27,750 nucleotides of DNA from a virus: IMG/VR virus record IMGVR_UViG_3300032164_000058, positions 1 to 27,750 of that record; one strand, given 5' to 3'. Shown here one piece after another: positions 1,131 through 27,696 of the stretch. A model generated the notes under the pieces. The model was not told the DNA's origin, ran no database searches, and saw nothing but the letters and a program-made list of their open reading frames with translations. A program made the position numbers and the translations under genes. How positions within the stretch are numbered: position 1 is the first letter of the stretch; every line of letters begins with the position of its first letter.

Positions 1131-1828
1131 TCAGGAACCTTTCGGCACTGGGGCAACCCCAAAAGGCGTCCGTGCCCCAGCCAATTGAGCCTCCCACTCT
1201 GCCTCGTCATGGCTACAAATCTGATTGTAAGCAATAACGAGTGCTTGCGTCTCAACACCACAGTCATCCCATGAGTCTTTGACGCCAGGTGGTCGTATGC
1301 CTAGCCGTTCACAGGCTCGCCAGACAGCGTACTCGCCGGTTCGTTCTGGGGGCCAGAGTATTCGGCGGGCATTGGTCCCTGACCAGCAAGAAAAACCTCG
1401 CGGGCCTTTGCCAGTTTATCGTCGTCAAGTGCATTTGCCTCCAAGACAAGAGCCAACACACGGTTGGATTCAACCTGTGTTAGCATCGCCGCACTCAAAT
1501 CCTTTTCCCAATTCGACCAGGTACGGGGATCACCCTCCTTGACTGTATCCCATTCAATCTCGGATGGAGTCAGAGACTTGACGACCATGTAGCCAAGTCG
1601 CTTCTTTGCCCACTCACCGAGAATCTGTTGATAGGTAGGATCGTTTACATTAGCAACCCAACCGTCCTTGGTAAGTTTTCCTGGCGGTTTCGGCGTCGGG
1701 CACAGTGCCGTAAACTCGTCCATATTCGGCAGACCCTTGGCACGAAACACGAGGTTCTGTTCACCACGCGGTAGCACCAAGATGATTTCTGTACTCAGAG
1801 ACTTAGGATCAACACCAGCGATCTTCAT
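1131..1828 (-). CDS. Tail assembly chaperone, long form made by -1 frameshift (gpGT-like)
   Basis: From about 1349 to the TGA at 1131 the -1 frame is open and reads as sensible protein: PPERTGEYAVWRACERLG, then a helical ALVIAYNQICSHDEAEWEAQ segment, ending VPKGS. This segment has no ATG, GTG or TTG from well before the shift region, so it needs the upstream frame. A run of five C on the coding strand (1352-1348, codons GGC CCC CAG) allows a Pro-tRNA to slip back one base onto CCC; a run of five T a little upstream (codons GTT TTT CTT) is a second candidate. Slippage at the C run would give about 160 residues of short form plus 72 of extension, 232 in all. The next gene starts two bases after this stop, which supports it as a real gene end. 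Confidence 0.65.
1301..1828 (-). CDS. Tail assembly chaperone, short form (gpG-like)
   Basis: A protein of 175 residues starting MKIAGVDPKSL. ATG 1828 is preferred over ATG 1834 because the GAGGG site lies about seven bases upstream of it, whereas it touches the earlier ATG. The gene sits between the tail tube gene and the tape measure, where tail phages encode the chaperone pair that coats the tape measure during tail assembly. The C-terminal third is helical and charged. The stop at 1301 is followed by an open -1 frame that codes for a well-formed second domain, which is the classical gpG/gpGT arrangement. Function is assigned from this arrangement and position; the sequence itself was not recognised as a named family. 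Confidence 0.7.
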   Translation of the reverse strand: MKIAGVDPKSLSTEIILVLPRGEQNLVFRAKGLPNMDEFTALCPTPKPPGKLTKDGWVANVNDPTYQQILGEWAKKRLGYMVVKSLTPSEIEWDTVKEGDPRTWSNWEKDLSAAMLTQVESNRVLALVLEANALDDDKLAKAREVFLAGQGPMPAEYSGPQNEPASTLSGEPVNG

Positions 1829-1902
1829 GTTCATTTCCCTCGCGGAGAAAGAAAGGTAAGGTTGACATCGTGCCAACCTTACCGTATTCAGCGTTCACAG
1901 GA

Positions 1903-2958
1903 CTATTCCACGTCCCGCTCCACAATCGGTTCAGTCACGTTGCATTTGCCCGTAACCGAAATCGACGCTTCCTTGAAATTCACTTCCTTCGTGTCGGCGC
2001 GGAAGTCCGGGAATGTGGTTCGCTCATTCTCAGACGTGCCACACGGCGGCGTGTGAAGAACAATCAGGTCGATGGCATAGGGTTCACACTGATCGGTGGA
2101 TGCGCTGACCCACTCAGCCGCACCGCCAATACCCTTCAACGCATCCATCGGACTGACTGGTTCACTCGTTCCTTGAGTGATGTGTTCGTAAACAGCCTCC
2201 ATCTTCACGTCCATCGGCACTTGATTCCCTTCCCTGACGGTATCCAAGTCGCCTCGGTCCAACAGGTATTCGTGAGTCTTGTGCTCGGTGTAAGTGATAT
2301 TGCCGTCACCCACTTTGATGTCCAACTGTTGTGGCAAGAAAGTCACGACGCCATCATCGACATACGTGCCTGCTCCAAGAGCGGGAGTGAAAGCAATGTT
2401 GGTTGTCGCCAAAGGCACGACACCAGCCTGCGTAGTCGCCACGGTTACAACCGTGGTTCCACCAGTAAGAGCCGAACCGTCGCCGACCAAGAGAGGTTGG
2501 GGTGTTGCACCCAAGACACCCTTGAACTCGACGACCCACGCTCCGGCTGTGCCAGTAACAGCCCAGTCGTCAGTCGTGTAACCATCTTCCATTGCCACGA
2601 GAGCCGTCTTAACGGCTGCCACATCGGCCTCAAAGGTAATGGCATCAGTCGTCTTACCACCCCATGTCAAATGGAAATGGCCGCCAGTCGCCGAGATGCC
2701 GACTGACTGCTTAGCGTTGACACCACCAGATGGGGCGGCAGTGCGCGCGGTGACGACGTGAATCGTGTCGGCTGTCTCGCCGTCCACGGTAAAACGAGCA
2801 CCCAGGGGCACTTTATCAGTGTCCACGGTGTTCAAGACAACAGAGTCGATGTCCAAATCCGTATCGGTTGCCACAGGCGGGGAAGCCGTCAATGCTCCCA
2901 CCCCCGCGAGACCGTCTTGGAAAATGACATCGCAATCGCGTAGTTCAATGCGAGCCAT
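1903..2958 (-). CDS. Major tail tube protein with inserted surface domains
   Basis: A protein of 351 residues with AGGAG nine bases before ATG 2958. The termini look like one tube domain: MARIELRDCDVIFQDG at the start and, from about residue 210, a run including LDIKVGDGNITYTEH, MDVKMEAVYEHIT, FRADTKEVNFKEASISVTGKCN, typical of tail tube beta barrels. Residues about 25-85 and 88-176 are an insertion. The second inserted block has the pattern GHFHLTWGGKTTDAI..., AAVKTALVAM, VTGTAGAWVVEFKG, LTGGTTVV, a beta-sandwich repeat I recognise as common in surface proteins of large phages and some bacteria. The tube protein forms the tail lumen; the insert probably decorates its outside. Position before the chaperones supports the call. 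Confidence 0.75.
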   Translation of the reverse strand: MARIELRDCDVIFQDGLAGVGALTASPPVATDTDLDIDSVVLNTVDTDKVPLGARFTVDGETADTIHVVTARTAAPSGGVNAKQSVGISATGGHFHLTWGGKTTDAITFEADVAAVKTALVAMEDGYTTDDWAVTGTAGAWVVEFKGVLGATPQPLLVGDGSALTGGTTVVTVATTQAGVVPLATTNIAFTPALGAGTYVDDGVVTFLPQQLDIKVGDGNITYTEHKTHEYLLDRGDLDTVREGNQVPMDVKMEAVYEHITQGTSEPVSPMDALKGIGGAAEWVSASTDQCEPYAIDLIVLHTPPCGTSENERTTFPDFRADTKEVNFKEASISVTGKCNVTEPIVERDVE

Positions 2959-2973
2959 GTTCAGTTTCTCCTG

Positions 2974-3471
2974 TTATTCGTTGTTGGAAAGTTCCATCAC
3001 GTAGCGAGCGTCAACCATTGACTGCTTCAACTTGTTGGTCGGATCAACTTGCCCAAAGTGCATGACGCGAATGGTGTCATTGCGTCCCTGCGCTGGCGAC
3101 AAACAACCAACCAATTCATGCTCGTCGTCACCAGGTTCATTTCCATACTTGAAGATTGCGATGGAGCCATCCATTGCTTCGTGAAACACGCCAACCTTCT
3201 TGATGATGTCGTACTGATTCTTGCCCTCGTCGTTACGACTTTGGAACAAGACGTTCACAATTACTTCAACACGGAAATAATTGCGACTCAGTTCCTTCGT
3301 AAAAGGCCCTGTAATGCGCACTTCACACCGATCCGTGGCGTGTGTAAATGCAGTCGTGCGCTCATGCAGACCCTCCACCAAAACTGGAAGAGTCTGACTG
3401 TCCGCGATACCTTTCAAGTAGGTGGCTACGGATGCGAAAACCCAGCGTGCCCAATTAGGATTGGCAGACAT
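2974..3471 (-). CDS. Tail terminator/tail completion protein (probable)
   Basis: A protein of 165 residues. The start codon overlaps the previous stop as TAATG, and a strong AAGGAGG lies five bases upstream. It contains EVRITGPFTKELSRNYFRVEVIVNVLFQS around residues 48-78, an alternating beta pattern, and a later charged helix. Size, fold pattern and position between the neck protein and the tail tube gene match tail terminator proteins, which cap the finished tube and join it to the head. No motif fixes the family, so the call relies largely on gene order. Confidence 0.55.
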   Translation of the reverse strand: MSANPNWARWVFASVATYLKGIADSQTLPVLVEGLHERTTAFTHATDRCEVRITGPFTKELSRNYFRVEVIVNVLFQSRNDEGKNQYDIIKKVGVFHEAMDGSIAIFKYGNEPGDDEHELVGCLSPAQGRNDTIRVMHFGQVDPTNKLKQSMVDARYVMELSNNE

Positions 3472-3980
3472 TATATCCTCCTTGCAACCGAGTTAAGAGC
3501 AAGATCATCGTCAGCATTGATCTCCATAACGGAGCCTTCAATACCAAGTGGTTCACCGGGCATTTCTTTCCCGGTAACGACGTATGCCGTATCAAACTCG
3601 TACTCCTCAAAATTCTCAATGGCATACTTCCTGCTGTTGTAACCAATCCAATCACACTCTTGTAACGCGAGATTGGGAGCATCGCGGCGTTCGATGATGA
3701 ACAACCGTTTTCCAACCTCAAAATATCCACCCGTCACCGTCATCTTATTGGCAGAAATCACCGAAATGCTCTGCTTCAATTCTCGACTGATCGTAACAGG
3801 CAGAACGACCGCTCGATGAATCCGGGTTGCCGTCTTCGTTCGAGTCACTTCACCGGTTTTCGTATCCGTAGTCACCGTGCCATTCTGGTATACGGTAATC
3901 GCACCCCCGTACTGCCGCTTCAAGGCGTACAATACGTGACGAATCTGTTGATTCAAGCTGTAGTTAGCGGGATACGTCAT
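3471..3980 (-). CDS. Head-tail connector/neck protein (probable)
   Basis: A protein of 169 residues starting MTYPANYSLNQQIRHVLYAL. The frame is open further upstream, but ATG 3980 overlaps the stop of the preceding gene as TAATG and is the likely start. The centre carries ISANKMTVTGGYFEVGKRLFIIERRD and then DWIGYNSRKYAIENFEEYE, the pattern seen in phage neck proteins that carry a short beta domain with an 'r.fiI...D' segment. It would sit between portal ring and tail. It ends in TAATG coupling with the tail terminator gene. Confidence 0.5.
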   Translation of the reverse strand: MTYPANYSLNQQIRHVLYALKRQYGGAITVYQNGTVTTDTKTGEVTRTKTATRIHRAVVLPVTISRELKQSISVISANKMTVTGGYFEVGKRLFIIERRDAPNLALQECDWIGYNSRKYAIENFEEYEFDTAYVVTGKEMPGEPLGIEGSVMEINADDDLALNSVARRI

Positions 3981-4297: not shown

Positions 4298-5627
4298 TTA
4301 GCCGAGCACCGGAACGCAGAGGGCAGCGTTCAGAACCGCCACACCCGCGAGGATGTCGCAGTTGACCACGGTGCCACCGGCGTTGATGTCGTACTGCATG
4401 AGCACGCGCATCCCGATGCCGTTGTGAGGAACCACGGCGGCCATGACACCCATGCGGCTGTCGGGCAGAGCCAACGGCCGGGTGATGAGCGCCAGGGCGT
4501 CCCGATGGAACGCCAGGTTCAACGCACCGTATGGGCCGGGGTATGCGGCGTCCGTGTTGACCACCGCAATCTCCAATGGCCGATCCAGGTACACCGTGCA
4601 AGTCGTACCAGCGTCCTCAGACTCGATGACCGTATAGGTATGCCGCCCATTGAGGGTTACCCCAAAGGAGAGCAACTGGCCAACTTGCGGAGCCTTGGCC
4701 GTGGTGTAGGTATCAAGGACGATACCCTTGCTCCAACCCTTGGCGTAATCAGCCGCTACACCAATCTTCTTGTAGCGCGTGACTACCGCACTGGTCAGCA
4801 CGGTATTCTTGAGGGGTTCGTTGAGAACAACCGCGCCGGAAGTCTTATCGAGCATCCAGGTGGGTTGATCGTTGCCAGCGATATTCAGATACTCGCCAGC
4901 GAACCCAGTGACCACGATATTGAAAGCCCCGGCGTAACCGGCATCCTGACCAGCAACGAGTGTCAGGGGGCCTGCGTCAACATCCGCACCCGTCAGGACG
5001 TTGTTCACGTTCTGATCCATGTAGGTGTCGAAACCGAGGATACGGCCGAGGATGGCGTTTTCCAACGCTGATCCACCATCACCACGCTGATCGGCCCTGA
5101 TGAACAGTTCCGTCTTGAGCATGGCAGTCTCGCTACCCGGAGCCAGGACGAGCCGACGCCCATCCACGGGAGCCTTGTTGACGTTCAACCGCTCACGAGC
5201 ATCCAGGCAGTAGTCCCTGGCCGTCGCAGCCGCCAAGCCACCCAACCGACCCACACGACCAGCGGCAGGAGTGCCGAGGTAAGCGTGAACGCGACCGAGC
5301 AAGGCGCGGTCGATGCCACGGCTGATGGACAGCATGGCGGGTCGGAGGTAAATGTCGGTCAATTCTTGGAAGGACTTGCTGCCTTCCCCGTCACGGATCA
5401 CGAAACTCTGATAGAACCACTGGTCCAAAGTCACCGGCACATTGGTCGCGGTGGCGTCTTGCTGGACGAGGGTGGTCCCATCGGTCTTCCGGCGAATCTT
5501 GAACTCACCCGGACGACGGGTGTTCACGACATCGCCGAACTTGGCGATTTCGTTCTCAAAGTCACGATGGACGAGGTTAGCCATGACCATGTTCTCTTCG
5601 AGAATGGCCAAGCCTTCCTGTGCCCAA
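4298..5627 (-). CDS. Major capsid protein, exon 2 (P22 coat-like)
   Basis: Exon 2 encodes 442 residues of a 467-residue protein plus the last base of the junction codon. It opens WAQEGLAILEENMVMANLVHRDFENE, followed by FGDVVNTRRPGEF, the signature of P22 coat-like capsid proteins (IPE.W..E.l..l...lv...lv.rd...e...GDtV...rp). The family has an HK97-type fold and builds the icosahedral shell. The reading frame is open back to an ATG at 5692, but that ATG and the residues before WAQEGL lie inside the group I intron and are not part of the capsid protein. The scaffold gene is just upstream of exon 1. The central region from about residue 215 probably includes an extra surface domain (a stretch with AGYAGAFNIVVTGFAGEYLN and DQPTWMLDKTSGAVVLNEP). 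Confidence 0.85.
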
Positions 5628-6300
5628 CAATCTGTTACCAACTCTTTCGAGTCGGGCGGATCATTTCTGTCCGCCTCCTTGCATCGCTGCAAGGTTCAGA
5701 CTATATCTTCACCCGATCTTTGATAAATCTTACACAACACTCCAACCGTTGAAGATGTTCTGTTGATTCATCCCGTAAAAGATGATTGCACGTTAAACAT
5801 ATCACGCCGCGAACAACTCCATCAACATGGTGGATATGTTTATGTTGTTGATTCTTGAATCCTGAACCACAACATTCACACTGACCAATCGCGTACAGTC
5901 GCACAACTTCATCTCGCGTCATTGAATACCGAGACATTGCTTTATGCAACCGTTGACAAACTTTACAGTAATGATACGGACAATCCTTAACACTGCAAAA
6001 CTCTGTCACCAATTTCCACGTCGAACAATCCGTACACCACGCTCGTCCATCCTTGATTGTGCGCTTCCAACCTCTTGTCGGAATGTCATAGTGGAAACCT
6101 TCGCTAATCTTCGTTGCAACTCTCTTTCGTTTCGGGGCAGGGCGTTCAGTCGTTGAGGGTTCCCTTTCGGGTCTTCCCTGCTGATTGACCGCAGCACTCA
6201 GATTTTCACGCATCGCGTACTGGTGCATACTCGGTGTTTCCAGCATATAGCCCTGTTGTTTCATTGATTGTCACCAACCAAAGGAGCCTTGGGTTAATCA
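5628..6300 (-). other. Group I intron in the major capsid gene
   Basis: A 673-nt intron. The 5' site follows the U of exon sequence GAGCU, which pairs with the intron guide GGCUC (P1, with the conserved U-G wobble); the neighbouring intron CCCAA pairs with the first bases of exon 2, UUGGG (P10). The intron ends in G (5628). Core elements are visible: CAACGACUGAAC (6144-6155, P7 5' strand) and AAGAUAUAGUCUGAACC (5693-5709, P7 3' strand), close to the classical R and S boxes. Three hairpins follow: CCUUGCA-GCGA-UGCAAGG (GNRA loop), GGCGGA...UCCGCC and ACUC-GAAA-GAGU. Precise splicing joins ...IPE-L to WAQEGL in frame. Without splicing, translation stops at a UAA five bases into the intron. Confidence 0.9.
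5701..6264 (-). CDS. Intron-encoded HNH homing endonuclease (endonuclease VII-like)
   Basis: An open frame of 187 residues inside the group I intron. It has an N-terminal zinc knuckle (C77, C80, C100, C103) and an endonuclease VII-type HNH core: CECCG near 129-133, HIHHVDGVVRG at 143-153, CLTCN at 156-160. Such enzymes cut intron-less alleles and spread the intron. ATG 6264 has GGTGA six bases upstream, but from this start the frame runs across the P7 5' strand of the ribozyme, and its UAG stop lies within the P7 3' strand, so the true start could be later, at a non-ATG codon before the first zinc knuckle. No ATG lies between residue 18 and the zinc knuckle. Confidence 0.85.
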   Translation of the reverse strand: MKQQGYMLETPSMHQYAMRENLSAAVNQQGRPEREPSTTERPAPKRKRVATKISEGFHYDIPTRGWKRTIKDGRAWCTDCSTWKLVTEFCSVKDCPYHYCKVCQRLHKAMSRYSMTRDEVVRLYAIGQCECCGSGFKNQQHKHIHHVDGVVRGVICLTCNHLLRDESTEHLQRLECCVRFIKDRVKI

Positions 6301-6374
6301 AGCTCAGGAATGTAGGCATCCAGGACGTTCTCGTAGCAAGCCACGAAAGCCCGGTTTTGGTACAGACGATTCAT
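6301..6374 (-). CDS. Major capsid protein, exon 1
   Basis: ATG 6374 has a perfect AAGGAG six bases upstream. It encodes 24 residues, MNRLYQNRAFVACYENVLDA then YIPE, plus the first two bases (CU) of a Leu codon completed by exon 2. The IPE-L-W junction matches the N-terminal 'FIPE.W' segment of P22 coat-like proteins. Read without splicing, this frame gives only a 26-residue peptide ending at UAA. It lies 47 bases after the scaffold stop, in the expected scaffold-capsid order. Confidence 0.85.
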
Positions 6375-7351: not shown

Positions 7352-7987
7352 TCACGATAAGTAAGCCCAACCCGTAGGAAAGGAACCAGACTTTTCGTAA
7401 CGTCGAAACCTCTTATGCAATGACGAGTAGGATAGTCCATTTTGACTCGCCGCTATTTTCATGGAGGGATACGCCACATTATCAACAAGCACACAACGAC
7501 TCATTAACTGCCTTGCCGCATCACGTTGTCGTTGATAACCTGGATGCCCTCGATGAATCTCTGATAATCGTTGCCGCACGCCAATTGTTCGTTTACGCCC
7601 TTTGTTAATTGCAGCCATCCGCTCCCCGAAACCTGCAACTCGTTTCTTTCCACGATTTGACGCCGCCCGTCGAGCCACAATCTCTACCGATGGTTTTACA
7701 CCTTTTGGTGCGCCGCCTCCACCAGAATTGCGATTGTATCCAAATGGTGCCTCAGTCTTTAACTCGGCAATCGCCTGTTGTTCCATCCATTTCACACACT
7801 CTCCGTCGCAACTCTGATAGATCACAGTAAAGCGGAAATTTTCAATACCATATTTGGCAATCGCCGCTTTTACAAGATATGAACCATGTCCATTTCGATG
7901 CTTACACCATCGCAATGCTGGATTAGTCGTGATGCCAACGTACATCTTCCAATTGACAAGGTTCGTGACAATGTAAAGACAGTGCAT
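7352..7987 (-). CDS. GIY-YIG homing endonuclease
   Basis: A protein of 211 residues. The N-terminal domain carries the GIY-YIG motif in the form LYIVTN...KMYVGIT, with R26 in ALRWCKHR and the later Glu in WMEQQAI, followed by the linker 'LKTEAPFGYNRNSGGGG' typical of phage GIY-YIG (SegA-like) enzymes. The C-terminal half has basic helices (NUMOD3-like GRKRTIGVRQRLSEIH and a helix-turn-helix-like YPSMKIAASQNGLSYSSL) for DNA binding. ATG 7987 overlaps the upstream stop as TAATG. It is freestanding between a head gene and the scaffold; 96 non-coding bases follow it and contain a small CCAGC/GCTGG hairpin but no intron core that I could recognise. Confidence 0.9.
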   Translation of the reverse strand: MHCLYIVTNLVNWKMYVGITTNPALRWCKHRNGHGSYLVKAAIAKYGIENFRFTVIYQSCDGECVKWMEQQAIAELKTEAPFGYNRNSGGGGAPKGVKPSVEIVARRAASNRGKKRVAGFGERMAAINKGRKRTIGVRQRLSEIHRGHPGYQRQRDAARQLMSRCVLVDNVAYPSMKIAASQNGLSYSSLHKRFRRYEKSGSFPTGWAYLS

Positions 7988-9586: not shown

Positions 9587-10873
9587 TTACGTATGTGCGA
9601 CCCAAGTTGCCACACCACTGGTGACATTCAACATCCAATCCCCATCACCCAAACCCGAAGAATCAGGAACATTTGCTGGACCACTCGGACCACTGGGGCC
9701 AGTCGGGCCATCAGGACCGCTCGGACCACTGGGACCAGTCGGACCATCGGGACCACTCGGACCTGTTGGCCCGCCACTTGGACCTTCCGGGCCACTTGGT
9801 CCGCTGGGTCCGTCTGGGCCACTTGGACCACTCACAAACGAATCCGCACCACTCGGGCCACTCGGGCCACTCGGGCCACTCGGGCCATCCGGGCCGCTAG
9901 GACCGCTGGGTCCATCGGGACCGCTCGGGCCATCCGGGCCACTCGGGCCATCCGGGCCGCTCGGGCCATCCGGGCCACTCGGGCCATCCGGGCCGCTCGG
10001 GCCATCCGGGCCGCTAGGACCGCTGGGTCCATCGGGACCGCTCGGGCCATCCGGGCCACTCGGGCCATCCGGGCCGCTAGGACCATCGGGACCGCTGGGT
10101 CCATCCGGGCCGCTGGGTCCATCCGGGCCGCTGGGTCCATCAGGACCGCTAGGACCGCTCGGGCCATCAGGACCGCTAGGACCATCGGGACCGCTCGGGC
10201 CATCAGGACCGCTGGGTCCATCCGGGCCGTCCGGGCCGCTAGGACCGCTAGGGCCACTCGGACCATCGGGACCGCTCGGGCCATCCGGGCCACTCGGGCC
10301 ATCAGGACCGCTGGGTCCATCCGGGCCGCTAGGACCACTGGGTCCATCGGGACCACTCGGGCCGTCCGGGCCGCTGGGGCCATCGGGACCACTCGGGCCG
10401 TCCGGGCCGCTGGGGCCATCGGGACCGCTCGGGCCATCCGGGCCGCTCGGGCCATCCGGGCCGCTCGGGCCATCCGGGCCGCTCGGGCCATCCGGGCCGC
10501 TAGGACCGCTCACAGATGAATCTGCACCACTCGGGCCGCTCGGACCTGTTGGACCACTAGGACCGCTCACAGATGAATCCGCACCACTCGGACCACTGGG
10601 GCCATCGGGACCGCTGGGACCATTGGGACCACTGGGACCATTGGGACCACTAGGGCCAGTCGGGCCACTCGGGCCACTTGGACCCGTCGCAAATTCCCCA
10701 ACCTCTCCGGCTGCAAGTTCCAATACCTTCGTCTGCGTGGCACGTACTTCTGCCACAATCTGATCCCAGTCTTGTGAATTGGGATCACGGTCACTTATTG
10801 TGCCCTGACGTTCAGGATTGATGGAATTACCATCCCAAACCTGATCGGGGAATTGTGGTGTCGTGTATGCCAT
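9587..10873 (-). CDS. Collagen-like fibre protein, long
   Basis: A protein of 428 residues. Residues 1-62 form an N-terminal domain ([24 protein letters not shown]) shared with the next gene upstream. Residues about 63-400 are roughly 110 Gly-X-Y triplets, mostly alternating GPS and GPD, broken by three short ADSSVS/ADSFVS interruptions. A 25-residue C-terminal cap follows ([18 protein letters not shown]). Collagen repeats form rigid triple helices; at about 0.29 nm per residue the stalk would be close to 95 nm if continuous. In phages such stalks occur in tail or head fibres; placed beside the portal gene, this one may decorate head or neck. The opposite strand also has a long open frame, but it is an artefact of the repeat. 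Confidence 0.85.
9650..10690 (-). repeat. Coding tandem repeat of Gly-X-Y triplets
   Basis: About 1 kb made of 9-bp units in higher-order 18-bp pairs (GPS-GPD), with variant copies using GGT/GGC/GGA glycine codons in patches. The copies are not identical, so the array has diverged or been shuffled. It is a coding repeat and not a CRISPR array: there are no unique spacers. Confidence 0.85.
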
Positions 10874-10885
10874 TATATTTGTTCC

Positions 10886-11587
10886 TTAACCGATTGCTTC
10901 CCAACGAACAATGAACGCAGTATTCACCACTGTAAAATTGAGGGTGAATCCATCTGCATCCATCGAAACAAAACCACCTGTCACTTGTGAGTTACCGGAC
11001 GAATTGATCGTGTAGATGCACAAATCAATTCGACTATCTCCCTTAAAAATGTTGCTGAATACGCCCGCCCATGACATGGAGTTTTGATTCCCGGCAGCAT
11101 CCATCATACCTTGACAACAACAAAAATGTGTCTGGACGCCTGGTCCCTTCGACACCCAAAACTTCACTGCCTTCGGCCGAAAACCAAGTCCGGTAACTAA
11201 GTAGTTTCCTGTGGCAGCCGGACACGTAAAACAACCGATCCGAACTTGATTTGTTGCATTTGACCCACTCGGACCACTGGGGCCATCGAGACCACTCGAA
11301 CCACTCGAACCACTCGAACCACTCGGACCACTCGGACCACTCGGACCACTCGGACCACTCGGACCAATTAGACCTATTGGACCACTCGGACCTATTGAAC
11401 TGGTCTGACCAAATATTTCCTCTTGATCCCGCTGTAACAATACTGCCTGAATTGCACAGACTTCGGACACCACCTGATCCCAGTCTTGCGAATTGGGATC
11501 ACGAATATCTGACCGGTGATGTCTTTCCGTATTGGAACTTGTACCATCCCAAACTTGGACAGGAAATTGTGGTTTTGCGTAGGCCAT
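10886..11587 (-). CDS. Collagen-like fibre protein, short, with C-terminal head
   Basis: A protein of 233 residues starting two bases after the portal stop. Residues 1-60 resemble the start of the next collagen-like protein (both have MAY..PQFP.QVWDG and DPNSQDWDQ), so the two are paralogues. About 14 Gly-X-Y triplets follow, including Ser-rich GSSGSSGSSG units. The C-terminal domain (about 115-233: VRIGCFTCPAATGNYLVTG, FRPKAVKFWVSKG, DADGFTLNFTV, FIVRWEAIG) is a beta-rich head with a cysteine cluster (HFCCCQGM), similar in layout to knob domains of trimeric fibres that bind receptors. The pair likely assemble separately on the same virion anchor. Confidence 0.8.
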   Translation of the reverse strand: MAYAKPQFPVQVWDGTSSNTERHHRSDIRDPNSQDWDQVVSEVCAIQAVLLQRDQEEIFGQTSSIGPSGPIGLIGPSGPSGPSGPSGPSGSSGSSGSSGLDGPSGPSGSNATNQVRIGCFTCPAATGNYLVTGLGFRPKAVKFWVSKGPGVQTHFCCCQGMMDAAGNQNSMSWAGVFSNIFKGDSRIDLCIYTINSSGNSQVTGGFVSMDADGFTLNFTVVNTAFIVRWEAIG

Positions 11588-23183: not shown

Positions 23184-24069
23184 TTAGAAACTCCGTTACA
23201 TCATCCCATCGTTTTGACACCTTCTCCAATTGATCGCGTCCGAGTTGTTGTCGGGCGACTGCCGCCTCCCACAGATCAGTGTCGATCAAGTCGTCAATGT
23301 TGTCCTGAATCAAGGCAACAATGACGCGCGGTTCCAAAGCATCCAACTCGAACGACTCGTCACCATACAACGCCCGGTATCCCTCGTAGCGGGAGTCCGT
23401 GACTTTGGCAGGATTCGGTGGCAAATTCTCAATCTGATCGAAGTTCAACGCAATGCGTCTGACAGAGACCGTCGAACCAAACAGATTCAAGCGATCCTGG
23501 ATGTCGCGCGACATGTCGATACCACTTGGGTCGTGGTCGCCAAGATGAATGATGATCGTCCGTTTGCCCGCCTCTTCGCGCCCAATCAGGCGTTGAGATG
23601 CTCCCCACATCTCACTCTGGCTCACATATCCACGACAAGAAAAGTATGGTACATCCATCTGAGTACAGACGCCTTCAATCACACCGATCAAAGCGTCCTT
23701 CTCAATGAAAACTTCCACATAATTTTCTTGACCGGCCCACAAATCCTCGGTGTACTGATTCGCACAAGCACGTATGATGTTGCGTGGACTGGACCAATGT
23801 GACAAACCACGTAAGTTCCGTGTGCGGTCTTCAATCGCATCCCAGTCAATCAAACCCGCCAAACGACCATCGTTGATGATCTCACCAAGACCCTTGTACG
23901 ATTGCACGGTGTTGGGAATCAAGTCTCTCGAAACAAATTGGTAAAAAAGTTGGCGTAAAGTCAACTTGAATCCTTGTGCCTGGTACTCAACAATAATCTT
24001 GTTGGCTTGAGCGATGCGTTCCAACGCGACCGCACGAAACGACTTCGGAACATAACAAATCTTAGTCAT
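23176..24069 (-). CDS. TOPRIM protein related to Spo11/Top6A (mini-A type)
   Basis: A protein of 297 residues. The N-terminal half has LTLRQLFYQFVSRDLI (Y43 sits where the Spo11/Top6A nucleophile tyrosine would be), followed by LGEIINDGRLAGLIDWDAIE and DRTR. The C-terminal half is a TOPRIM domain: VFIEKDALIG (E123) and IIHLGDHDPSGIDMSRD (D178, D180). This matches the small bacterial and phage Top6A relatives described as mini-A, which lack a fused B subunit. Its likely role is DNA cleavage or strand passage, although nuclease activity is also possible. A GHKL ATPase is encoded 548 bases downstream in the same direction. Confidence 0.75.
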   Translation of the reverse strand: MTKICYVPKSFRAVALERIAQANKIIVEYQAQGFKLTLRQLFYQFVSRDLIPNTVQSYKGLGEIINDGRLAGLIDWDAIEDRTRNLRGLSHWSSPRNIIRACANQYTEDLWAGQENYVEVFIEKDALIGVIEGVCTQMDVPYFSCRGYVSQSEMWGASQRLIGREEAGKRTIIIHLGDHDPSGIDMSRDIQDRLNLFGSTVSVRRIALNFDQIENLPPNPAKVTDSRYEGYRALYGDESFELDALEPRVIVALIQDNIDDLIDTDLWEAAVARQQLGRDQLEKVSKRWDDVTEFLNG

Positions 24070-24589
24070 TGATGAACTCCCAAGTAAACCCCTTACATTG
24101 TTTCAGGCGGCCATGAAGTACGTGAGTGATATTCTGCGGACAAGCGCCTATGTCTCTTGCTGCTTCATCAATGCTATCATACTCCTTCCCGTCCGAACGG
24201 CGGACGGGTTTATTTATACCCGTCCCATCTCGACGACAATCACGCATATTCTGTGAATGTGTCCCATAGGAAAGATTCCGCAAATGGTTATCACCCTGCC
24301 CTTGCGGCCCGTGGCAAACCTCTTTACCTATTGGTTTCAAGCCTACAAACGCCGAAAGTACCAAATCGTGAACATACCGTGTGCGCCGTTGTTTGCCTCG
24401 CCACAAATTGACCACAGCATAATCCCGACGCGACCCAGCCATTCGTTGACGTAAAATGCGTCCGGCCAAGAATGGAACACGCCCGTCAACGTATTCAACG
24501 ACCCTATCAACACTGCGAACACGTCCCTTGTCTGAGACCTGATACAAACCCTCGTAACCCGGAACATCCTTCCACCGTTCGATCTTCAT
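24062..24589 (-). CDS. NUMOD4-HNH homing endonuclease
   Basis: A protein of 175 residues. The N-terminus is a NUMOD4 motif (WKDVPGYEGLYQVSDKGRVR), then an HNH core with VHDLVLSAFVGLKPIGKEVC, HGPQGQGDNHLRNLSYGT and NMRDCRRDG, and a C-terminal NUMOD1-like segment (DSIDEAARDIGACPQNITHVL) that binds DNA. ATG 24589 overlaps the upstream stop as ATGA, and the stop overlaps the start of the TOPRIM gene by eight bases. It is freestanding. Confidence 0.85.
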   Translation of the reverse strand: MKIERWKDVPGYEGLYQVSDKGRVRSVDRVVEYVDGRVPFLAGRILRQRMAGSRRDYAVVNLWRGKQRRTRYVHDLVLSAFVGLKPIGKEVCHGPQGQGDNHLRNLSYGTHSQNMRDCRRDGTGINKPVRRSDGKEYDSIDEAARDIGACPQNITHVLHGRLKQCKGFTWEFIND

Positions 24590-26988: not shown

Positions 26989-27696
26989 TTACTTGTTTAG
27001 AAGCATGTCCCAATCAAAAGTTCCGCGCCGCTCCAATTTTACTCGCTTTTGTTTCTTACGTCGATCCCTCAAACTATTGAGTGTGACATACGGATCACTA
27101 TGTTGTTTCACGTATACATCCCGAACCCAAGCCGCTGAGAAAGAATCAACAAAACGTCCAAGACGTTTTCGATTAGCATAGGCTGAATATAAAGTCTCAC
27201 CCACACATCGACAGACACCAAGATAGGGTGTTGACATTCCACGTCGTTTTCGTCGGCTTTGGGACTGTTGCTTGTATGTTGCCCACCGACAATTTGATGG
27301 ACAATAATTTCGATTTGTCCGTTTACGATCCAATGTTAATTCATCATTGTATCCATTCGCAAACGCCCAGTAAGCAAAAACGTCAAATGACTGCCATTCC
27401 CGACAGACACATATCCCTCGGCCACCATAATTATGCCAACCGGCGGCCCGAGGATTGCTACATCGGTACTTCATACTTTTCCAGCAAGCATAAAGTCTTG
27501 AACCTGTGAGACAATGCCGCCGATTCACAGCACCTATCTTTTCATTTCTCAAACAACCACATGAACGAGTATGCCCGGTCACAAGTTTATCACAATTAAC
27601 CACTTTACAGACACCACAAGAACACACCACAGAAACAGCGCGTCCTTGTGGTGTCACAACAACAGTCAACCGTCCAAACCTGTCGCCCTTCTTCAT
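26989..27696 (-). CDS. HNH-AP2 homing endonuclease
   Basis: A protein of 235 residues. It shares the family layout of the HNH gene at 20710: GDRFGRLTVVV, cysteine pairs CSCGVCK...SCGCLRNE, LYACWKSMKYRCSNP, NYGGRGICVCREW and an HNH core LDRKRTNRNYCPSNCRWAT (the first His position is Arg, as in many members). A degenerate AP2-like segment follows (YLGVCRCVGETLYSAYANRK, LGRFVDSFSAAWVRDVY), then a basic tail. ATG 27696 overlaps the upstream stop as ATGA. Confidence 0.85.
   Translation of the reverse strand: MKKGDRFGRLTVVVTPQGRAVSVVCSCGVCKVVNCDKLVTGHTRSCGCLRNEKIGAVNRRHCLTGSRLYACWKSMKYRCSNPRAAGWHNYGGRGICVCREWQSFDVFAYWAFANGYNDELTLDRKRTNRNYCPSNCRWATYKQQSQSRRKRRGMSTPYLGVCRCVGETLYSAYANRKRLGRFVDSFSAAWVRDVYVKQHSDPYVTLNSLRDRRKKQKRVKLERRGTFDWDMLLNK

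Follow-up and report, generated by a model that had tools for sequence, protein, structure and literature searches.

The window (the whole stretch of 27,750 bases that we analysed) is a metagenomic viral contig from IMG/VR, and its minus strand encodes a P22-like head module: terminase, portal, scaffold, capsid, and a putative major tail protein. The major capsid gene lies in two pieces (these, and all features described below, are on the minus strand). Exon 1 (6301..6374) comprises 24 codons plus CU, and its peptide begins MNRLYQNRAF; it is preceded by a Shine-Dalgarno sequence (AAGGAG at 6386-6381) upstream of the start codon (ATG 6374), and relatives of the capsid protein begin with the exon 1 peptide, uninterrupted. 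Exon 2 (4298..5627) is identified by its open frame and by a profile match. Between the exons lies a group I intron of 673 nt (5628..6300). Once these 673 nt are removed, the exons join into an open frame of 467 amino acids, whose product matches phrog_283 ("major head protein", 1e-60) and P22_CoatProtein in Pfam (PF11651, 5e-31).

The original prediction proposed an intron with exactly these boundaries, and they hold to the base: the match to the Rfam group I intron model (RF00028, 51.8 bits), the P1 and P10 pairings, the terminal G, and the intronless relatives all agree. In the intronless relatives, the insertion site falls between GAGCU and UUGGGC. Splicing had also been predicted to yield IPELWAQEGL, as at a normal capsid junction. 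This claim passed an independent test: a scan of viral contigs found 80 relatives of the capsid, and IPELWAQEGL or a close variant is contiguous at the predicted junction in 74 of them. We consider it confirmed from sequence that the P22-like major capsid gene is interrupted by a group I intron at 6300-5628, whose splicing is predicted. As foreseen, a simple gene caller would begin the capsid at TTG 5692, inside the intron, and we found the open reading frame that starts there. Simple gene calling misses both exon 1 and the intron, which leads to wrong annotations for the capsid genes of this uncultured group.

Neither the intron nor its open reading frame (ORF) has a DNA or protein relative in named phage genomes, and megablast with the first 20 kb of the window gave no match at all; therefore we can name no cultured relative and no sure host. 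(Anaerolinea was considered as the host. The best capsid relative from a bacterial genome, which is on a 63-kb contig binned as Anaerolinea, reaches only 53%, which is too weak.)

The ribozyme

RF00028 matches 6305-5677 across the whole model (51.8 bits, E = 1.3e-10; the gathering cut-off is 50 bits), and this is the sole RNA match at the gathering threshold in the window. The margin over the cut-off is narrow, and the long ORF insertion is the probable reason. P1 is formed by the exon strand GAGCU (6301..6305, with the splice after the U) and the internal guide sequence GGCUC (6284..6288), and P10 by CCCAA in the intron (6289..6293) and UUGGG at the start of exon 2 (5623..5627). There is a U.G pair at the P1 splice site and the last base of the intron is G. 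All three of these elements (P1, P10, and the terminal G) are where the original prediction had put them. Furthermore, P1 covaries in a relative (GGAACU/GGUUCC in L085; we use L numbers for related loci). Because P1 plus P10 alone occur in about 1% of shuffled sequences, we give more weight to the core and to the restoration of the exons.

The 5' part of the core (6130..6255) contains P3, P4, P5, P6, the 5' strand of P7, the 3' strand of P3, and the 5' strand of P8. The 3' part (5674..5717) contains the 3' strands of P8 and P7 as well as P9, as placed by RF00028, our sequence profile, and covariation, and the P9.1 and P9.2 hairpins (5636..5673) were placed by core alignment and covariation. 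For the analysis of covariation, we aligned the cores of 15 related introns with their ORFs removed. In this alignment, 95.7% of the core cells are paired, versus 80.0% after shuffling, and there are 117 double changes, versus 32.6 in shuffles (none of 500 shuffles had as many). A control with slid partners gave pairing of only 30-41%. P3 is 100% paired, with 4 of its 6 pairs doubly changed. The proposed P7 strands are also 100% paired, with 2 of 4 pairs doubly changed, and the three predicted hairpins at the 3' end are real and covarying; they are P9, P9.1, and P9.2. The gap between the 5' strand of P7 and the 3' strand of P3 is just 4 nt, which leaves no room for P7.1/P7.2 and hence speaks against subgroup IA. 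Finally, nucleotides 5-7 of the intron are a UAA stop codon in frame with exon 1 (6294..6296), and an in-frame stop is found at the same place in all 7 of the capsid-site introns examined.

The intron-encoded nuclease

The original prediction described the intron as making the capsid mRNA dependent on splicing. The intron is probably mobile and not just such a requirement, as it contains an endonuclease VII-like gene. This ORF of 187 amino acids (5701..6264), which fills most of the intron, had been overlooked. (A conserved alternative start, ATG 6246, would give 181 amino acids.) Its product matches phrog_2633 (4.5e-8) and, at 22.5 bits, falls under the cut-off of 23.6 for PF02945 in Pfam. 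Roughly the first 40 codons overlap the ribozyme core, and the nuclease domain lies in the P8 loop.

Across six diverged copies of the nuclease, the motifs CxxC, HIHH, and CxxCN are invariant, and all six have the zinc CxxC pairs and the Asn after the second CxxC. Relative to T4 endonuclease VII, D40 is replaced by His (HIHH versus DHDH), and the position of R54 is Arg only in the window and in L102; it is Leu or Ile in the other four copies. With His for the first Asp and an Arg position that varies, the nuclease is outside the strict definition of the DHHRN family of endonuclease VII-type homing endonucleases (PMC6083498). The dN values of the nuclease part are 0.07-0.44 and dS is mostly saturated; for the comparisons in which dS could be estimated, dN/dS is 0.12-0.31. 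In the codons that overlap the core, dS is merely 0.04-0.45. The low dN/dS implies protein constraint on the nuclease, and the low dS of the core codons implies RNA constraint on the core. The substitution pattern shows that the nuclease part is under purifying selection.

The predicted structure has a mean pLDDT of 65.9, with low confidence in the part that is read from the core; at the HIHH-CxxCN motif, it has two strands and a helix. With this mediocre model, Foldseek found nothing at E < 0.001 and the best VIA-align match has a Z score of 4.2; the VIA-align matches include beta-beta-alpha-Me/HNH enzymes (Hpy99I, PacI, and Gme HNH) among unrelated zinc proteins. A profile search of PDB sequences with the nuclease gave no match. 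The product is presumably an active beta-beta-alpha-metal homing nuclease.

Related introns in capsid, portal, and tail genes

We searched for relatives of the intron with a DNA pattern, with the nuclease, and with a sequence profile. In the 13 loci that were scanned with Rfam, 13 matches in 12 loci were above the cut-off, and there are further introns elsewhere. These appear to be one intron lineage, present within one phage group at seven or more sites that are spread over the capsid, portal, and putative major tail genes. At the position of the window's intron (site a), introns occur in L002-L004 and L048, which are four contigs of one population with identical introns, and also in L023, L075, L083 (partial), L084, L085, L096, and L102, whose capsids are diverged. 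Most of the introns at this site other than L023's have endonuclease VII-like ORFs. (In L023, at 3164-3637, a LAGLIDADG-type ORF (38.7 bits) in the P5-P6 region replaces the endonuclease VII type in P8; P7 of this intron covaries, GAUC/GAUC.) Site b is 7 nt further on in the capsid gene (L102). Site c is in the putative major tail gene after MARIEL (L042/L043, L064, L088, and L096) and site d is 5 nt beyond it (L073/L074). Sites e-g are in the portal gene (L089 and two sites in L105).

For every intron that is fully sequenced, P1 and the terminal G are consistent with the restored frame; the exception is the capsid intron of L096, whose P1 is weak. (That intron, at 123-819, has a P1 of 3 bp plus a mismatch and may splice poorly.) The frame of L043 is restored only with a 3' splice site taken from the P9.2-to-end spacing that it shares with L088, and this 3' splice base is less certain than any other in the set. 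For L074, we rejected a splice site 5 nt earlier, which gave a broken frame; P1 pairing gives the site 5 nt further on.

Two loci, each represented by one contig, have two introns in one gene. In L102 (IMGVR_UViG_3300031772_001801, 1796-3399), the capsid gene has an exon of just 7 nt between two group I introns: the order is GAGCU, intron, UUGGGCU, intron, CAAGAAGG, and the joined exons encode ELWAQEG. The second intron has a P1 of 4 bp and a P10 of 4 bp, scores 40.1 with Rfam, which is below the cut-off, and contains a single frame of 257 codons; this encodes an endonuclease VII-like domain twice, in the P5 region and again in P8. In the literature that we searched, whose coverage was partial, no exon of 7 nt between group I introns is reported. 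In L105 (IMGVR_UViG_3300037225_000282, 2968-3505), two portal introns surround an exon of 25 nt; their cores are identical and their guide (P1-P2) regions are different. (L104 has a single portal intron at 2968-3225, which we rejected as an allele: the 25-nt exon is missing and splicing would break the frame. It is probably an assembly collapse of two identical introns.)

Several comparisons link the introns of different genes. The capsid and tail introns have a common exon target (GAGCU) and guide (GGCUC). The tail intron of L088 (510-764) matches the capsid intron of L102, which is from the same metagenome, at 33 of 33 nt from the guide to P3 and at 68 of 72 nt from P3 to P5. From P7 to P9.2, it matches the tail intron of L043 at 70 of 77 nt and the capsid intron at just 54 of 77. 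By these matches, the L088 tail intron is a mosaic, with a 5' half of the capsid type and a 3' half of the tail type. Also, the second capsid intron of L102 clusters with the tail introns of L064 and L096 (100/100 support, in an intron tree that is mostly unresolved). The movement of introns between genes may have occurred by reverse splicing or by recombination.

All of the tail and portal introns that we found are without an ORF of their own. Instead, a free-standing GIY-YIG gene is directly upstream of the intron-bearing tail gene in L043, L064, L074, and L088. (L096 has the putative major tail protein gene twice, as tandem paralogues at 4328-6007; there, the GIY-YIG gene is before the first paralogue and the second has the intron.) Of the intronless loci, just L015, L016, L022, and L058 have a GIY-YIG gene upstream of the tail gene, and 39 dereplicated loci do not; the association between the GIY-YIG gene and the tail intron has p = 4e-4 by Fisher's test, with populations dereplicated by hand and relatedness ignored. 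Similarly, an endonuclease VII gene whose DHDH/DHNH motif is intact lies directly upstream of the intron-bearing portal gene in L089 (12037-12837) and L105 (2612-2926). Two intronless portals (L112 and L113) lack such a gene, which is too few relatives for a test. The tail and portal arrangement is the one that has been called collaborative homing (PMC6083498, PMC10448857).

Splicing, homing, and known systems

We are highly confident in a reading in which the capsid-gene intron is spliced to restore the capsid mRNA, its nuclease most likely acts in homing, and related introns have moved between genes. In the late transcript, the guide sequence would pair with exon 1 to form P1, and an exogenous G would attack after GAGCU; exon 1, held by P10, would then attack after the terminal G of the intron, which would restore the mRNA for the 467-amino-acid capsid. 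We infer these steps from the intron's anatomy and from the intronless relatives. The early in-frame stop would prevent ribosomes that come from exon 1 from entering the ribozyme core. The intron is most likely a mobile homing intron because it contains an endonuclease VII-like gene whose nuclease part is under purifying selection. The nuclease most likely cuts the conserved site in the intronless capsid genes of co-infecting relatives, and homing would copy the intron in. Occupancy of the capsid site among relatives is patchy. Within the phage group, related introns have moved from gene to gene, among those for capsid, portal, and tail.

The nuclease might instead be a weapon of interference, which cuts the capsid gene of intronless competitors with homing as a by-product. 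The PhiPA3 phage has such a layout, with an HNH nuclease (gp210) in an intron of an essential gene, and gp210 disables PhiKZ by cutting (PMC11620839). The target in our case is also a conserved essential gene with intronless relatives. This proposal is by analogy, and it is compatible with homing rather than exclusive of it; we consider it possible, if on the doubtful side. An intron that is spliced and immobile, with vertical inheritance and a nuclease that is inactive or has another role (such as a splicing helper), seems a little less likely still. The replacement of D40 by His, the lack of conservation of R54, and the identical introns in four contigs of one population would fit, but the invariant CxxC, HH, and CxxCN motifs in six diverged copies and the purifying selection argue against an inactive nuclease; the patchy occupancy and the LAGLIDADG ORF that L023 has at the capsid site fit recurrent invasion; and the ORF-less relatives are accompanied by homing-type genes. 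Finally, it is very improbable that the intron is degenerate and unspliced, with a capsid made from exon 2 from a start inside the intron (TTG 5692, whose frame is indeed open, or a downstream ATG), as the core pairs are intact, and so are P1, P10, and the terminal G; in addition, exon 1 has a Shine-Dalgarno sequence and a start of its own, and its peptide is contiguous and conserved in relatives.

Returning to the mobile homing intron, we lean towards a broader picture in which a single lineage at seven or more sites has its nuclease either inside (in the capsid gene) or, for ORF-less introns, in a free-standing gene beside it, and has diversified by changes of guide, recombination between genes, swaps of nuclease, and stacking around the 7-nt and 25-nt exons. 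The origin of collaborative homing has been stated to be unclear (PMC10448857). If the broader picture is correct, then this lineage would be a natural series that shows how collaborative homing can arise and how introns change their target. Known cases of collaborative homing (cyanophage psbA, T7-like phages, and the ICP1 terminase; PMC6083498, PMC10448857) involve ORF-less introns near a free-standing nuclease, and the tail and portal introns are likewise ORF-less and directly downstream of a free-standing homing-type gene. The difference is that in this lineage, the nuclease is inside or next door, both within one phage group, and that cleavage is proposed from the layout.

The original prediction overstated the rarity of capsid introns: they have been reported in LittleE, Tuc2009, and crAss-like phages, and the site described here has been occupied repeatedly. 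The LittleE intron (PMC3706429) is a close counterpart. Like ours, it is a probable group I intron in a major capsid gene, with U before it and G at its end, a homing endonuclease ORF, and a patchy distribution, and related intron sequence is found in tail genes of the same cluster (BAKA and Optimus). However, LittleE has a capsid of the HK97 type and an insertion of 819 bp, and its ORF is LAGLIDADG-like and lies on the opposite strand; its splicing was shown experimentally, by RT-PCR and N-terminal sequencing, while splicing in the window is predicted from sequence. Tuc2009 has a group I intron in a capsid gene, as cited in PMC3706429. The delta and zeta crAss-like phages have group I introns in major capsid protein (MCP) genes, in one case several per gene, according to the account of them in PMC7886860; these are other phages, and in that account the introns were identified by signature protein domains, without analysis of splice sites or of the family. 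The nuclease resembles F-CphI and its intron-encoded relatives (PMC6083498), which share the endonuclease VII-like motif, the zinc sites (CxxC), and the Asn that follows the second of these. In that family, some nuclease genes lie within group I introns that interrupt phage polymerase genes, whereas ours is in a capsid gene, and F-CphI's family is DHHRN, whereas ours has HIHH for DHDH and the Arg is not conserved.

Although capsid introns were already known, the series of sites and arrangements within one lineage may be new. Close relatives in three virion genes of one phage group make the spread of the introns traceable, and the family provides many intron-bearing and intronless alleles of these genes. 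A recent survey of Bastillevirinae found introns only in genes for nucleotide or DNA metabolism and in terminases (PMC11878797). The family bears on this range of genes as well as on the origin of collaborative homing (PMC10448857). The 7-nt exon of L102 offers a testable lower limit for the exon between two adjacent self-splicing introns.

Elsewhere in the window, there are three free-standing homing-type endonuclease genes (7352-7987, 24062-24589, and 26989-27696): a GIY-YIG gene upstream of the scaffold gene, a NUMOD4/HNH gene, and an HNH gene. The structural module also encodes a long collagen-like protein with GPSGPD repeats (9587-10873) and its shorter sibling (10886-11587).
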